Part shown: positions 54,327-60,127 of the stretch, in pieces
Numbering within the stretch: position 1 is the stretch's first letter
Layout of the letters: every line of letters begins with the position of its first letter
Origin: Halorubrum lacusprofundi ATCC 49239
GTDB lineage: Archaea; Halobacteriota; Halobacteria; Halobacteriales; Haloferacaceae
NCBI RefSeq assembly: GCF_000022205.1
Contig: NC_012029.1
Span: 1,178,001 to 1,242,000, forward strand
Reading direction: 5' to 3'
Length of the DNA: 64,000 nucleotides
The notes under the pieces: model-generated
The model's input: the letters and a program-made list of their open reading frames with translations, nothing else
The model's database searches: none
Told to the model about the DNA's origin: nothing
Made by a program: the position numbers and the translations under genes

Positions 54327-54539
54327 GTCCGACTCTTGCGAGTGCATATGGGGTAATCGTTCCGGAGTTGGTGAGAATTAGGTCGTATTTGAGACAACAC
54401 AAGAGTACTCGAAATCGGACGTATAAACCGCATATCGCAATACAGAATTTCCACTCGGCAGACCCTCACAATACCGCACTACAGCACTCAATACCGCTTT
54501 GAAGCAACGACTATAGCCGTACCTCCCGCACAACGGGTT

Positions 54540-54995
54540 GTGACCCGACACAGCGAGCAGACAGACCACCGGATCGCGTTCGTCTGCGTTCAGAACGCGG
54601 GACGGAGCCAGATGGCAGCCGCGTTCGCCGAGCGCGAGCGCGACCGTCGCGACGTGGGCGATCGGATCGAGATTGTCACTGGTGGGACGCGGCCGGCCGA
54701 TCACGTCCACAACGTCGTGGTCGAGGCGATGGGAGAGCTGGACATCGACCTCAGCGACCGAACGCCACGAGAGGTGACGCCCGACGAGCTACAGGCGGTC
54801 GATCTCGTCGTCACGATGGGTTGTTCGGCGTCGGACGTGTGCCCGGCGACGTGGAACGGGGAGAATCGCGATTGGGGGCTCGACGACCCTCACGGCCGTC
54901 CGATCGAAGAGGTTCGTGCGATCCGTGACGAGATCGAAGGGCGAGTCGTCGCACTGTTCGACGAACTCCTGTCGGAGACGCCGTCCGCGGAGTGA
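54540..54995 (+). CDS. arsC: Arsenate reductase (thioredoxin-type, LMW-PTPase fold)
   Basis: 151 residues. The phosphatase-loop CVQNAGRSQ (CX5R) near residue 16 holds the nucleophilic Cys, and a downstream Cys pair in MGCSASDVCP (about 99 and 105) corresponds to the redox relay of thioredoxin-coupled ArsC. The C-terminal acid in WGLDDPHG matches the general-acid Asp. It reduces arsenate to arsenite. The start is GTG at 54540 with ACTATAGC about 30 bases upstream. It is convergent with the arsA-hcsL-hcsS operon, which supports the arsenic assignment. Confidence 0.9.
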   Translation: MTRHSEQTDHRIAFVCVQNAGRSQMAAAFAERERDRRDVGDRIEIVTGGTRPADHVHNVVVEAMGELDIDLSDRTPREVTPDELQAVDLVVTMGCSASDVCPATWNGENRDWGLDDPHGRPIEEVRAIRDEIEGRVVALFDELLSETPSAE

Positions 54996-55040
54996 CGCGA
55001 TTGGGAGGGTAGTCAGCCGGCACAGCCCTACCGAACGCCG

Positions 55041-55265
55041 CTAACAGCAGCCGTTGTCGTCGGCGCCACAGACGCTGCCGTAGTCGATTCCGGTTTCGTC
55101 GCTGATCGCGTCGTTACACTGCATTACCATCGTCGTGAACGCGAACTCCGACGACGACTCCTTCGCCGCCGCGAGTTCCTCGCTGAGCGCCTCGGCGACC
55201 GCGACGATCTCGTCGTCTGTGACCTCGCTCTCGACGGCGTCCTGATCGGAGGCGCTCAACAGCAA
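55041..55265 (-). CDS. hcsS: Small protein ending in Cys-Cys (halo-CC-star HcsS-like)
   Basis: A 74-residue acidic helical protein whose last residues are CGADDNGCC followed directly by the stop codon. A further Cys lies in VMQCND. It matches my memory of a small haloarchaeal family called halo-CC-star protein HcsS, which pairs with HcsL. Function is not established. Vicinal cysteines at a free C-terminus could bind arsenite, another soft metal, or form a redox pair; the arsC/arsA neighbours make arsenite attractive but unproven. It overlaps hcsL by 10 bases. Confidence 0.75.
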   Translation of the reverse strand: MLLSASDQDAVESEVTDDEIVAVAEALSEELAAAKESSSEFAFTTMVMQCNDAISDETGIDYGSVCGADDNGCC

Positions 55266-55672
55266 CCACCCCCGGTTGATCGCGCGAACTCCTCGTCGAT
55301 CTCGTCGCTGACCGCGTCGTTCGTCCGCTGGAGGACCTCGACCAGTTCTGTCTGTGCGGCCTGCTGACGCTGGATCGTCTCGTTGCTGGACAGCTCCGTC
55401 TGGAGCTGTTTCAGCTCCGCCATCACCGACTCGTCGAAGCCGCCGCGTTGCATCTGCTGTTGCTTCCGCTGGTACTCGCGGAGTAGCGCCATCGCGTCGC
55501 TGTCGTCCTGTAACGCCTCATCGGCCTCGACGAACCGCCGGTACGTCTCCGACTCGCCGAGGGCGTCGAGGAACTCGCGGAGCGCCGTCTCGACGTTCGC
55601 TTCCACGTCCTCCTCGACAGATGCGCTGGTGTTACCCTCGGCCATATCGTCCGCGTCCTGTGCGTCGCTCAT
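55256..55672 (-). CDS. hcsL: YlbF-like protein ending in Gly-Gly-Cys-Cys (halo-CC-star HcsL-like)
   Basis: 138 residues. After an acidic N-terminal 30, residues 30-120 form a YlbF/YmcA-like helical domain (ALREFLDALGESETYRRF, then MALLREYQRKQQQMQ). The C-terminus is STGGGCC and then stop, mirroring the CC end of the next gene. YlbF-family proteins in bacteria form complexes that can hold an Fe-S cluster through C-terminal cysteines, which is a useful parallel (established for YlbF/YmcA/YaaT). The start overlaps the arsA stop (ATGA), so arsA, hcsL and hcsS form one tightly coupled operon. Confidence 0.82.
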   Translation of the reverse strand: MSDAQDADDMAEGNTSASVEEDVEANVETALREFLDALGESETYRRFVEADEALQDDSDAMALLREYQRKQQQMQRGGFDESVMAELKQLQTELSSNETIQRQQAAQTELVEVLQRTNDAVSDEIDEEFARSTGGGCC

Positions 55673-56625
55673 GAGGGAGTCACCTCCGGCGCATCCGCCT
55701 CAGCGATGTCCGCCAGCCCAGTGATCTCCTCGCCGAATGCGCTCTGCTCGTCGAGTCCGATCGGCTCGTCTTGCCGGAGTGGCGCCAACATGAGCGGCGC
55801 GTCGAACCGATCGCGGATCTCGTCGAGGTACTTCGCCTGCTGAGCGCGCCGATTCGCGAAGAAGGCGTTGTTGCCGTACTCCTCGGGAAGGAGATAGTTG
55901 GCGACGACCAACGAAGTCTCGATGCCGACTTGGTCTTCGAGGTCGGCGGCGGCCCGGTACGCCTCCATCATGGGGGTGTACTCGGGGTACATCACGAACG
56001 CGAAGGTACTTTGGTTGGGATCTTTCATCGTCTCGATGACCTCGTCATACTGGTCGCCCTTCGCGGGCGCGGCACCCTTCGTCAGCGAGCCGAGGTCCAT
56101 GAACCCCTTCCAGTCGGACGGGAGTTCGAGCAGCCGAAGGGTGTGCCCCGTCGGGGCCGTGTCGAAGACGACCACGTCGTAGCCGTCCTCGTCGAAGTAG
56201 CTCACGAACTTCTCGAGGGCGGCCATCTCCTCGGCACAGGGAGACTCCAGTTCCTCTTCAACGTTCGCGATCGCAGCGTCGACGTCGATCTGCGTGTTCT
56301 CCTTCTCCTCGTACATCTCCGTGACGTGGTCGAGGACCTGCTCACGGTACTCGGCGAGCGCCTTCTCCTGGTCGATCCGGGCCGCGTCGAGGTTGTCCTG
56401 CCCGACCGAAGTCGGCTCGTGGCCCACGGGCTCGCCGAAGATGTCCTCCAAGTGTGCGGCCGGATCGGTCGTAACGACGAGCGTTTCGTGGCCCGCTTCG
56501 GCGAGCTTCGTCGCCGCCGTTGAGGCGACCGTGCTCTTCCCGACACCGCCTTTCCCGGTGAAGAAAAGGTACTGCGTCTCCTCGCCCGGCGTCAGTTGGT
56601 CGACGACCGCGTCGGCGTCCGCCAC
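55669..56625 (-). CDS. arsA: Arsenical pump-type ATPase, C-terminal half only (ArsA2-like)
   Basis: 318 residues from a possible GTG at 56625. The P-loop TGKGGVGKST, the DTAPTGHTLRLLELP motif and the Cys in ESPCAEEM are intact. The sequence looks like the second ATPase half of the duplicated haloarchaeal ArsA (about 600 or more residues). The acidic Asp/Ala linker before it (DADGATDFDAVADADA) normally joins the two halves, but the first half is absent: upstream the frame runs antisense through arsR. It may be expressed as a single-domain ATPase or be a remnant. Confidence 0.8.
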   Translation of the reverse strand: MADADAVVDQLTPGEETQYLFFTGKGGVGKSTVASTAATKLAEAGHETLVVTTDPAAHLEDIFGEPVGHEPTSVGQDNLDAARIDQEKALAEYREQVLDHVTEMYEEKENTQIDVDAAIANVEEELESPCAEEMAALEKFVSYFDEDGYDVVVFDTAPTGHTLRLLELPSDWKGFMDLGSLTKGAAPAKGDQYDEVIETMKDPNQSTFAFVMYPEYTPMMEAYRAAADLEDQVGIETSLVVANYLLPEEYGNNAFFANRRAQQAKYLDEIRDRFDAPLMLAPLRQDEPIGLDEQSAFGEEITGLADIAEADAPEVTPS

Positions 56626-57075
56626 CGCGTCGAAGTCGGTCGCACCGTCGGCGTCAGCGTGGCCCGCGCCATCAACGTCGGTCGCCGTCCCGACGTCGAG
56701 TTGCTGTCGGCGCTCGGGAACGAGACGCGGTACAAGATCGTTCGGATGCTTCATGCGGCCGACGGCGACGAATTGTGCGTCTGCGAGCTCTCGCCGCTTC
56801 TGGACGTGAGCGACAGTGCGATCAGCCACGCCCTCTCGAAGCTCACCGACGCCGGTCTCGTTACGCGCCGGAAGGAGGGGAAGTGGCGGATGTACCGAGC
56901 CACGCCGCGCGCGAACGCCGTCCTCGTCGCGCTCGACGGCTCGCGGTCGCTGTAGAAGAGCGAGGAGCCAGCGCAGGCGTTCCGCGAACTCGCCGATCGG
57001 ACGATGGATCAGGTCGGTCGAGAGCGGCGACGCTCGCACGCCGACGGTGCCGCCGAACTCGAACCGGAGCCGTAG
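56596..57075 (+). pseudogene. arsR: ArsR-family repressor, N-terminally truncated and with in-frame stop
   Basis: Clear ArsR winged-helix sequence begins near 56686 (RPDVELLSALGNETRYKIVR) and includes the metal-site motif ELCVCEL and recognition helix SDSAISHALSKLTDAGL. Before it the frame reads antisense of the arsA linker, so the family's own N-terminus is missing. After VALDGSRSL a TAG at 56953-56955 interrupts the frame, which continues in protein-like fashion (KSEEPAQAFRELADRTMDQ) to a TAG at 57073-57075. A 119-residue product from ATG 56596 is possible, but two defects make this a likely pseudogene. Confidence 0.78.
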
Positions 57076-57252: not shown

Positions 57253-58173
57253 ATGCAATCGCGTTCCCGACGGTCGGTCCTCGCGGCGCTCTCTGCCGGG
57301 AGTGGACTCGGGATCGCCGGCTGTCTCGGCGACGACGAATCCGTCTCGGTCCTCGCCGCCGGGAGCCTCGCGGTCGTCCTCGACGATCACGTCGGGGGGC
57401 AGTTCGAAGCCGAGACGGGGATCGCCTGCCACGCGGAATACTACGGCACAAACGCGGTGATGCGGATGGTAAGCGACGGCCGGAAGTACCCCGATGTTGT
57501 CGTGAGCGCGGACGCCGGCCTCTTGCGCGACCGGCTCTACGACACGCATACCACGTGGGATGTCTCGATCGCGTCCAACGCCGTTGGGATCGCCTACGCC
57601 TCCGACACGCGGTTCGGGGAACGCCTCGAGGCGGGCGATCCGTGGTACGAAGTCGCCCGTGATGCCGACCCCGGTGCCCTCGCGATAAGCGACCCCGACC
57701 TCGACCCCCTCGGATACCGTGCCATCCACGCGTTTCGACTGGCAGAGCGGGAACACGGACTCGACGGCTTCGCCGAGGCCGTCACCGACGCCGCCTATCG
57801 GGAACCGCAGGAGCCGCAGTTGCTCGCCGGCGTCGAAACGGGAAACCGCGCCGCCGCGGTCGTCTACCGGAACATGGCCGCGGACCACGGGCTTCCGTTT
57901 CACCCGTTCCCGGAGGCGTACGATTTCTCGAACCCGGAGTACGCCGATCGCTACGCCGAGGCCTCGTACACGACGGACGGGGGGTACACGGCGACCGGTG
58001 CGCCGATCGTGTACAACGCGACGGCCCTCGAGAGCGCAGATTCACCGGACGCCGGACGCAAGTTCGTCCGGTTCCTCGCGAACGCCAGCGATCTCCTCCG
58101 CGAGAACGGGTTCGAGACGGCGGGATTCCCGAGGACTCACGGCGACGTTCCCGCCGAGGTGACGGACGGATGA
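57253..58173 (+). CDS. wtpA: Tungstate/molybdate ABC transporter substrate-binding protein
   Basis: A 306-residue exported binding protein. The N-terminus has a twin-arginine-like SRRSVLAA and a lipobox ending IAGC near residue 24. The mature part starts VLAAGSLAVVLDDH and contains EYYGTNAVMRMV, DVVVSADAGLL, ASNAVGIAY and ISDPDLDPLGYRA. Those phrases match the WtpA/ModA oxyanion-binding pattern; WtpA usually has DPCGYR where this has DPLGYR. Tungstate, molybdate, or both may be carried. It overlaps the permease gene by ATGA and heads the operon. Confidence 0.87.
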   Translation: MQSRSRRSVLAALSAGSGLGIAGCLGDDESVSVLAAGSLAVVLDDHVGGQFEAETGIACHAEYYGTNAVMRMVSDGRKYPDVVVSADAGLLRDRLYDTHTTWDVSIASNAVGIAYASDTRFGERLEAGDPWYEVARDADPGALAISDPDLDPLGYRAIHAFRLAEREHGLDGFAEAVTDAAYREPQEPQLLAGVETGNRAAAVVYRNMAADHGLPFHPFPEAYDFSNPEYADRYAEASYTTDGGYTATGAPIVYNATALESADSPDAGRKFVRFLANASDLLRENGFETAGFPRTHGDVPAEVTDG

Positions 58174-58991
58174 GTCTCGTCGATGCGACCCGCTCGGCCA
58201 CGAGATCTCGGCGACTGTCGCCGCTGTTGGTCTTCGGCGTCCTCGGGGGAATCCTGCTCGTCTACTTCGCGCTCCCCTTCGTGGTGTTTCTCGGCAGAAC
58301 CGGATCGGTTCCCGTCGCCGAGACCCTCTCCCAGACAGCGAGCCGGACGGCGGTCCGGAACTCGCTTCTCACCGCGCCGGTCGCCACCGCGATCGCGACC
58401 GTCCTCGGCGTTCCACTCGCGTACGTCCTCGCTCGCGAGACGTTCCCGGGGAAGCGGCTCATCGAGGCGCTCGTCGTGCTCCCGCTCGTCGTCCCACCGG
58501 TCGTCGGCGGGGCGATGCTGCTCAGCGTGGTGGGCCGGTTCACGCCGATCGGGGCCGCCGCGACGCGCGTCGGAGTACCGCTGACGGACAGTCTCCTCGG
58601 CGTCGTCCTTGCACAGACGTTCGTCGCCGCGCCGTTCGTGGTGATCACCGCTCGCGCCGGGTTCGGCGCCGTCGACGAGCGCCTCGAACAGGCGTCCCGA
58701 TCGCTCGGATACGGGCCGTTAGCCACCTTCAGACGCGTGTCGCTTCCCCTCGCGAGCCGAGCGATCGTCGCCGGCGTCGTACTCACGTTCGCGCGAGCCA
58801 TCGGCGAGTTCGGCGCCACGATGATGGTCGCGTACAACCCTCGGACGATGCCGACGCGCATCTGGGTCGACTTCATCGCCGGCGGTATCGACGCGATCGT
58901 CCCGCTCGCGCTCGCCCTGCTGGCGATCACGCTCGTCGTGGTCGTCACGGTACAACGGTTCGCCGGGGTTCCGACCGTGGTGGAGCGATGA
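58170..58991 (+). CDS. wtpB: Tungstate/molybdate ABC transporter permease
   Basis: 273 residues with six membrane helices. The ABC permease coupling loop is EQASRSLGYGPLATFRRVSL (about residue 170), and the AIGEFGATMMVAYNPRTMP segment is typical of molybdate/tungstate permeases. The ATG overlaps the wtpA stop and its own stop overlaps the ATPase start, so all three genes are coupled. Confidence 0.9.
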   Translation: MSLVDATRSATRSRRLSPLLVFGVLGGILLVYFALPFVVFLGRTGSVPVAETLSQTASRTAVRNSLLTAPVATAIATVLGVPLAYVLARETFPGKRLIEALVVLPLVVPPVVGGAMLLSVVGRFTPIGAAATRVGVPLTDSLLGVVLAQTFVAAPFVVITARAGFGAVDERLEQASRSLGYGPLATFRRVSLPLASRAIVAGVVLTFARAIGEFGATMMVAYNPRTMPTRIWVDFIAGGIDAIVPLALALLAITLVVVVTVQRFAGVPTVVER

Positions 58992-60127
58992 CCCTCGAAC
59001 TCGACGGACTGAGTCATCGGTACAGGAGCGAGCGTGCCCTCGACGACGTGTCGCTCGCCCTCAACGATGGAGAGCTCGTCGCGCTGCTCGGGCCGAGCGG
59101 CTGCGGGAAGACGACCGTCGTCCAAGCGATCGCCGGGCACCTCGACCCGACGGCCGGTCAAGTATCACTCCGCGGGGCCGATGTCACCGGTGTCCCGCCG
59201 GAGGACCGGAACGTCGGGATCGTCTTTCAGCGATCGACGCTGTACCCGCACATGACCGTCGGCGAGAACGTCGCGTACGGACTGCAAAGCGGAGATCTCA
59301 CGGCAGACCGAGTGAGCCAGCGTGTCGACCGGTACCTCGAACTGGTCGAACTCGCCGACCGACGTGATGCGTCTCCGGAGTCACTGAGCGGGGGCGAGGC
59401 CCGCCGCGTCGAACTCGCCCGCGCCCTCGCTCCCGAACCGGACGTCCTCCTGCTCGACGAGCCGTTGTCGGCGCTCGACAAGGGGCTCAGAGCGCGACTC
59501 CGCGAGGAGATCGTCCGCATCCAGCGGCAGACCGGCGTGACGACGCTGTTCGTCACCCACGATCAGGAGGACGCGATGTCGGTCGCGGACCGGCTCGTCG
59601 TCCTCCGCGATGGGGCGATCGTCGCGGCTGGAGCACCTCGGCAACTCTACGAATCGCCGCCGGCCCGCTTCGTCGCGTCGTTTCTCGGGCGCTCGAACGA
59701 GCTCTCGGCGACTGTCGACGGCGACGGGTCGACGGCGATGAGGATCGGCGGGACCGAAGTCGATCTCGACGCCGTACCGGGCGAGGTTGCCGACGCGCCT
59801 CGAGCCATCGTGCACATCCGACCGGGCGACCTGACGGTCAACCCCGCGACGCTGTCCAATAGGAGGTCGAACGACGCCGGTACCGCGCCAGATCGATCGG
59901 ACGCGTCGGCTGATGGGGAGCGGTCCGACAACCGAACGAAAACGATCGAGATGCGAGGGACGGTAACACACGTTCGTGACGTGGGACGCCGCTACGACGT
60001 CCGCGTCGAGGTCGACTCCGGCGAGGAGGTGACCGTCGAGCGGCATCGCGACGGGCTCGGTGAGGCCGATCGCGTGACCGTTGCCGCCGCGGCGAGCGAC
60101 CTCACGGTGTTTCCCGTCTCGAAGTGA
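58988..60127 (+). CDS. wtpC: Tungstate/molybdate ABC transporter ATP-binding protein
   Basis: 379 residues. Walker A is GPSGCGKTT (about 34-42), signature LSGGEARRVELARAL, Walker B VLLLDEPLSALD and the switch His is in VTHDQEDAM. The C-terminal 150 residues form a TOBE-type regulatory domain split by a disordered Asp/Ser/Arg stretch near 290-320 (ending MRGTVTHVRDVGRRYDV). TOBE domains of this class can sense the oxyanion and inhibit transport, so self-regulation is plausible. Confidence 0.92.
   Translation: MTLELDGLSHRYRSERALDDVSLALNDGELVALLGPSGCGKTTVVQAIAGHLDPTAGQVSLRGADVTGVPPEDRNVGIVFQRSTLYPHMTVGENVAYGLQSGDLTADRVSQRVDRYLELVELADRRDASPESLSGGEARRVELARALAPEPDVLLLDEPLSALDKGLRARLREEIVRIQRQTGVTTLFVTHDQEDAMSVADRLVVLRDGAIVAAGAPRQLYESPPARFVASFLGRSNELSATVDGDGSTAMRIGGTEVDLDAVPGEVADAPRAIVHIRPGDLTVNPATLSNRRSNDAGTAPDRSDASADGERSDNRTKTIEMRGTVTHVRDVGRRYDVRVEVDSGEEVTVERHRDGLGEADRVTVAAAASDLTVFPVSK

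Follow-up and report, generated by a model that had tools for sequence, protein, structure and literature searches.

HcsL and HcsS, two small cysteine-tailed proteins of haloarchaeal arsenite operons, beside a deletion remnant of ArsA in Halorubrum lacusprofundi

Halorubrum lacusprofundi ATCC 49239 encodes half of an ArsA-type ATPase together with two small proteins, HcsL and HcsS, that both end in Cys-Cys. What do these proteins do beside ArsA, and is half an ATPase the form with which they work? The locus lies in the window, the whole 64,000-nucleotide stretch of DNA that was analysed. A first-pass annotation, made from the letters alone, proposed a complex in which the small proteins could hand arsenite or a cluster to the ATPase.

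The window locus and its half-size ArsA

The locus contains the following features:

54540..54995, plus strand: convergent gene for an arsC-like low-molecular-weight phosphatase (PF01451, 92.6 bits), within the same collinear block as hcsS, hcsL, and the ArsA half
55041..55265, minus strand: hcsS, 74 aa, C-terminal CC (NF041415, 85 bits)
55256..55672, minus strand: hcsL, 138 aa, predicted YlbF/RicA/RicF-type five-helix protein, C-terminus GGGCC (NF041416, 165.7 bits)
55669..56625, minus strand: C-terminal half of ArsA (A2 of the two-domain haloarchaeal ArsA; NF041417, 557 bits)
56691..56698, no strand: deletion junction, the overlap of two blocks collinear with locus L119 by blastn
56691..56955, plus strand: divergent arsR remnant lacking its N-terminal part (NF033788, 84 bits); the collinear arsR block begins at 56691

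On the minus strand, the coordinates confirm the reported overlaps of 4 nt between arsA and hcsL and 10 nt between hcsL and hcsS. HcsL ends in STGGGCC and HcsS in ADDNGCC, and they are the only proteins with CC C-termini among the window's 355 mechanical ORFs with a length of 60 residues or more. Because Cys has a frequency of only 0.8% in gene-like ORFs of the window, two neighbouring CC ends lie far above chance. The family names given in the first-pass annotation are right: HcsL matches NF041416 over positions 1-113 of 113 and passes its cut-off of 140 bits, HcsS passes the cut-off of 55 bits for NF041415, and the YlbF-like domain of HcsL matches Pfam Com_YlbF (PF06133) at 60.3 bits against a gathering threshold of 23.9. 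The best NCBIfam match of the arsC-like gene is PRK13530 at 80 bits, under its cut-off of 215. The mechanical ORF of the arsR remnant starts at 56596, where the sequence is antisense to arsA, and the arsA-like start codon at 56625 is that of the first-pass annotation, with the frame open upstream to 57039. Immediately beside the arsR remnant is an ABC transporter operon of the tungstate/molybdate type (57253-60127), which encodes a substrate-binding protein, a permease, and an ATPase.

The ATPase had been described as an ArsA half-protein. Only half is indeed present, but it is not a native half-size enzyme. The window protein matches positions 317-616 of the 617 in the ArsA_halo model NF041417 and does not reach the cut-off of 800 bits. 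In a blastn comparison with L119, a locus of the same genus, window positions 54476-56698 (87.3% identity) and 56691-56953 (90.5%) are collinear with blocks that are 1,716 bp apart in L119; in the window they overlap by 8 bases at the junction. About 1.7 kb was lost: arsD, the N-terminal half of ArsA, the region of the divergent promoter, and the beginning of arsR. When a 210-base query across the junction was compared with 52 genomes of the genus, an unbroken match came from the window's own genome alone, and in the other 51 the two sides match separately. The window half-ArsA is what a private deletion left of a haloarchaeal two-domain ArsA, namely its C-terminal half, and the junction rules out half-size ArsA as the native form.

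The deletion also removed residues associated with arsenite. Five ArsA cysteines are invariant in all 65 full-length relatives (residues 36, 123, 176, 247, and 455 in L041), and the window half keeps only Cys 455. Judged by motif, residues 123, 176, and 455 probably correspond to C113, C172, and C422 of E. coli ArsA. By this pairing, all 65 relatives have the three arsenite cysteines of cluster 1, and the window half retains the C422 equivalent alone. Three cysteines are important in E. coli ArsA and are conserved, with one exception, in the two-domain proteins of cluster 1, some from Halorubrum and Halobacterium among them; without either one of its domains, ArsA is no longer catalytic (PMC2963123, excerpts). 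Since the N-terminal half and two of the three arsenite cysteines are gone, the window copy is predicted not to act as an arsenite-stimulated ATPase.

All three window frames (the arsA half, hcsL, and hcsS) are open. The arsA half has a median dN/dS of 0.048; between relatives the value is 0.057. By this measure there is no sign that selection on the window copy has relaxed, a point against regarding it as dead. However, unrelaxed selection is no proof of function, because the deletion may be recent; open, constrained frames fit either a young deletion or a function that persists in part. The 200 nt upstream of the window copy have no match to a simple TATA-like pattern, which also finds none in the intact L119 gap. 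Three other decayed ars loci, L072, L091, and L161 (genomes G192, G316, and G282, respectively), likewise retain the C-terminal part of ArsA beside hcsL/hcsS. These ArsA remnants have a stop or no P-loop, and in G282 the stop in arsA is accompanied by an incomplete hcsL.

The same genome carries an intact operon on another replicon, contig C3, with acr3, arsR, arsD, a 640-aa ArsA (1145.8 bits on the ArsA_halo model), hcsL, and hcsS (L041 5233-9840). Its arsR and arsD share 92% and 94% identity, respectively, with the genes of L141, a locus in a genome that belongs to a different family, whereas arsR genes of the same genus are only about 50-54% identical, which suggests that this second operon was probably acquired separately. 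The intact operon is expected to do the arsenite work, with the window copy damaged. Downstream of the intact hcsS, an Rdx (SelW/T/H-like) protein (L041 11207-11578) also ends in CC (DCSPGCC), and an Rdx gene follows hcsS in L051 as well.

HcsL and HcsS in arsenite operons

The association of HcsL and HcsS with ArsA extends well beyond this genome. The first-pass annotation had asked whether homologues routinely occur without ArsA, and they do not: across 391 Halobacteria genomes, HcsL is over its cut-off in 65, full ArsA_halo in 66, and both in 62 (Fisher p 3e-63). HcsL occurs without full ArsA in G015, where contig ends truncate ArsA, and also in G192 and G316, which have ArsA fragments. ArsA occurs without HcsL over the cut-off in G049, which has a complete HcsL at 134 bits; in G246, where hcsL is split by about 1.1 kb; in G313, whose HcsL is missing its last residues; and in G128, which has no HcsL and where no adjacent arsD is seen. 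The ArsA_halo gene of G128 (L162 1659-6644) adjoins the gene of a large protein that, read by eye from its sequence, resembles a molybdopterin oxidoreductase, perhaps of arsenic respiration or oxidation. HcsS is over its cut-off in 71 of the 391 genomes, six of which are without HcsL over its cut-off (G049, G060, G067, G246, G248, and G313). No HcsL was found in viral contigs.

There are 71 loci over the HcsL cut-off; arsD is present in 65 and full-length ArsA in 65. The remaining six comprise the window, three loci cut by contig ends (L056, L121, and L123), and two decayed loci (L072 and L091). The proposed tie to ArsA therefore stands, but the usual partner is a full two-domain ArsA with arsD adjacent and not the half-ArsA of the window. 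The order arsD-arsA-hcsL-hcsS recurs on ten annotated plasmids, including pNRC100 of Halobacterium NRC-1, a near-copy of which is left out of this count. The arsADRC system of NRC-1 is among the closest known, with arsR divergent from arsD-arsA and hcsL and hcsS following; unlike it, the window copy lacks arsD and the N-terminal half of ArsA. The published name arsADRC omits hcsL and hcsS, and neither protein is the "arsD" of NRC-1, which is a separate gene there. The NRC-1 operon is induced by arsenite and antimonite, according to a review (PMC3600143, excerpts). Literature searches on the protein names, on YlbF with ArsA, and on Com_YlbF with archaea or arsenic found no paper on the HcsL/HcsS proteins. 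Together, co-occurrence and conserved tails bear out the placement of HcsL and HcsS with ArsA, and the case that they are fixed parts of the haloarchaeal arsenite operon is strong.

The trio is not strictly haloarchaeal. In a search of 294 genomes from the phylum, HcsL-like proteins (103 and 100 bits, with matches that reach the tail) were also found in two genomes that lie outside Halobacteria, G461 and G581, in loci with arsA-hcsL-hcsS. The order in these loci, L175 and L176, is arsD, an AhpD-like gene (PF02627), arsA, hcsL (GGCC), hcsS (ending CDCGGKC), and acr3, which places the trio directly against a pump gene. In L175, HcsS (61 bits) and ArsA (1075.8 bits) pass their cut-offs, whereas HcsL fails (103 against 140 bits).

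Within Halobacteria, the pump itself is often not apparent. Arsenite resistance in NRC-1 is conferred through the ars operon without a role for arsB, and an unknown transporter has been proposed (PMC3600143, excerpts); the absence of arsB from such operons is also remarked on elsewhere (PMC8563766, excerpts). Neither acr3 nor arsP lies in the fetched stretch of 53 of the 71 loci, or of 47 of the 65 with arsD. Acr3 is over its cut-off in 18 of the 66 operon genomes, ArsB (PF02040) in four with low scores, and ArsP_1 in 50. None of the three is over its curated cut-off in 14 of the 66, and none has a match at E 0.001 in nine, some of these genomes being drafts. A conserved novel membrane protein beside the operon was sought by clustering the ORFs of the 71 loci, and none was found; of the 28 largest clusters, only the ArsP-like (9 loci) and Acr3-like (6 loci) have many predicted membrane spans.

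Folds and cysteine tails

The AlphaFold model of HcsL has five helices (mean pLDDT 82.7) and a disordered tail. Its best structural match is RicF (6prk_A; Z 11.3, rmsd 2.0 over 108 residues), and RicF, RicA, and YmcA (6prk_A, 6prh, and 2pih) are the top matches at Z 11.0-11.3, against 7.7 for the first match that is not a YlbF-family protein. The Foldseek E-values of the first six rows, 0.005-0.02, are weak, and chance more readily produces Z values of this size with helical bundles, yet every top match comes from the YlbF family, to which HcsL is also matched by sequence. HcsL, as modelled, has the RicA/RicF (YlbF) fold.

HcsS is modelled as two main helices with moderate confidence (pLDDT 72); it has no Pfam match and does not reach the gathering threshold of Com_YlbF PF06133. 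In a profile comparison, its C-terminal 55 columns align with the end of HcsL, tail included (90.7% probability, score 36.9). With both tails removed the score is 33.5, whereas the highest score among 100 column shuffles is 16.7; this control is lenient because shuffling loses helical periodicity. The match is repeated at 91.8% with the named loci, and the HcsL model matches an HcsS gene in G034 (E 3e-4). On profile-profile comparison and this single G034 match, HcsS is probably a shortened HcsL (YlbF) paralogue, which makes it probable that HcsL and HcsS form a RicA/RicF-like heterodimer.

The CC tails are conserved among relatives, as the first-pass annotation would have it: HcsL ends in CC in 71 of 71 loci, a set favoured for CC since the HcsL model score includes the tail, and HcsS in 62 of 70, a count that leaves out L078 although an HcsS match is present there. 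The other eight HcsS end in SC, GC, DC, or CG and keep one Cys in the last two residues. Among the named loci (47, minus the partial L227 and L229), CC ends are found in 45 of 45 HcsL and 41 of 45 HcsS; these loci come partly from the same genomes as the main set and are not independent of it, and the HcsS search rule required a Cys near the end, which biases the count towards CC. The 10-nt overlap sets the CC codons of HcsL over the start of hcsS and could alone keep CC; the residues are retained also in three loci with a 4-nt overlap and in a YlbF paralogue with no hcsS after it.

This chromosomal paralogue (own copy L042 5360-5758, G000:C2:809368-809712; tail AGGCC) resembles HcsL in a profile match over the whole length at 99% probability. 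An HcsL match of any score occurs in 291 genomes, and most of the matches under the cut-off are this paralogue. Unlike HcsL, it is encoded outside the ars operon in all 26 loci sampled, with two or three residues after its GGCC tail. It is near dph2, which encodes an Fe-S enzyme of diphthamide synthesis, in 22 of the 26 and before a MinD/ParA-like ATPase in nine. Since the paralogue shares the GGCC ending in the absence of ars genes, the origin of the tail is not specific to arsenic, and in HcsL too it need not be arsenic-specific, which counts against such a reading.

What the pair may do beside ArsA

The reading that best fits these findings, for which the balance is about even, is that HcsL and HcsS are accessory subunits of an arsD-arsA-hcsL-hcsS system: a Ric-like pair whose Cys tails bind arsenite beside ArsA, with the window copy damaged. 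HcsL and HcsS would probably pair as a RicA/RicF-like heterodimer, and the disordered tails of both subunits would meet and bind As(III) through three thiolates. The As(III) would be taken from, or beside, the ArsD-ArsA pair, and ATP hydrolysis might thereby be linked to what follows, whether a pump of the Acr3 type or a permease not yet known. In the window copy, the private deletion took arsD, the A1 half of ArsA with two of the three arsenite cysteines, and the native promoter. The eight HcsS that have lost one of their last two cysteines, and the G128 ArsA without Hcs or adjacent arsD, count against this reading. Arsenite hand-over to ArsA is the published role of ArsD (PMC2963123, excerpts), and because ArsD is already there, a second chaperone is not obviously needed. 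ArsD resembles HcsL/HcsS as a small Cys-pair protein encoded beside ArsA; however, it belongs to a different family and is itself present, with its CCx4C motif, in 65 of the 71 loci.

A related proposal gives the pair a more specific task and is unlikely. HcsL-HcsS would be a missing coupling unit whose tails hold As(III) at the interface that binds [4Fe-4S] in Ric proteins, with ArsA replacing RicT and arsenite passed on in cells without a recognisable ArsB, Acr3, or ArsP.

There is likewise only a minor chance that HcsL-HcsS carry an iron-sulfur cluster like RicA-RicF-RicT and sense or repair arsenite damage, with no part in arsenite movement. The fold and Cys position of HcsL are the same as in the Ric proteins, and in B. 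subtilis RicAFT, cysteines on the disordered C-terminal tails of RicF (C134 and C146) and RicA (C141) ligate a shared [4Fe-4S] cluster together with RicT C167 (PMC6751060, excerpts). However, RicT (PSP1, PF04468) is found in 0 of 66 operon genomes, with the B. subtilis control detected. According to the same excerpts, RicA-RicF alone takes up no cluster, and the discussion treats adjacent Cys residues ligating one cluster as undocumented, with one possible exception. HcsL-HcsS also differ from RicAFT in their vicinal CC ends, the roughly half size of HcsS, and their ars operon context.

It is rather improbable that the tails are a redox dithiol, engaged in thiol-disulfide exchange with ArsC, ArsA, or ArsD and forming no metal site. 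Vicinal cysteines at a flexible C-terminus, the AhpD-like protein within the L175/L176 operon, and the CC-ended Rdx-family protein downstream in the intact locus are consistent with such chemistry. However, arsC was found in the sequence fetched for no more than 49 of the 71 loci, so ArsC is not a constant partner, and no redox-fold domain of NCBIfam or Pfam is matched in HcsL or HcsS.

The window half-ArsA is very unlikely to be a working homodimeric ATPase in which the Hcs tails replace the missing A1 cysteines. The three open frames without visible relaxation of selection would suit such an enzyme, and single-domain ArsA/Get3 relatives exist (PMC2963123, excerpts). Against it stand the privacy of the deletion among 52 genus genomes, the loss of the native promoter, arsD, the arsR start, and two of three arsenite cysteines, and the stop or lacking P-loop in the comparable remnants of G282, G192, and G316; the upstream TATA-like search adds a point that is tempered by its failure in the intact L119 gap. 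Finally, the fold family recalls the YlbF-family proteins that act with RNase Y in Firmicutes, but a post-transcriptional regulator of the ars operon is highly improbable, given that HcsL-HcsS are confined to ars operons and the RicT partner is found in 0 of 66 genomes.

As accessory subunits that may bind arsenite beside ArsA, the small conserved proteins HcsL and HcsS, with their fixed place after arsA, are candidates for the missing link in haloarchaeal arsenite export. Because Halobacterium is genetically tractable, the question is directly testable.
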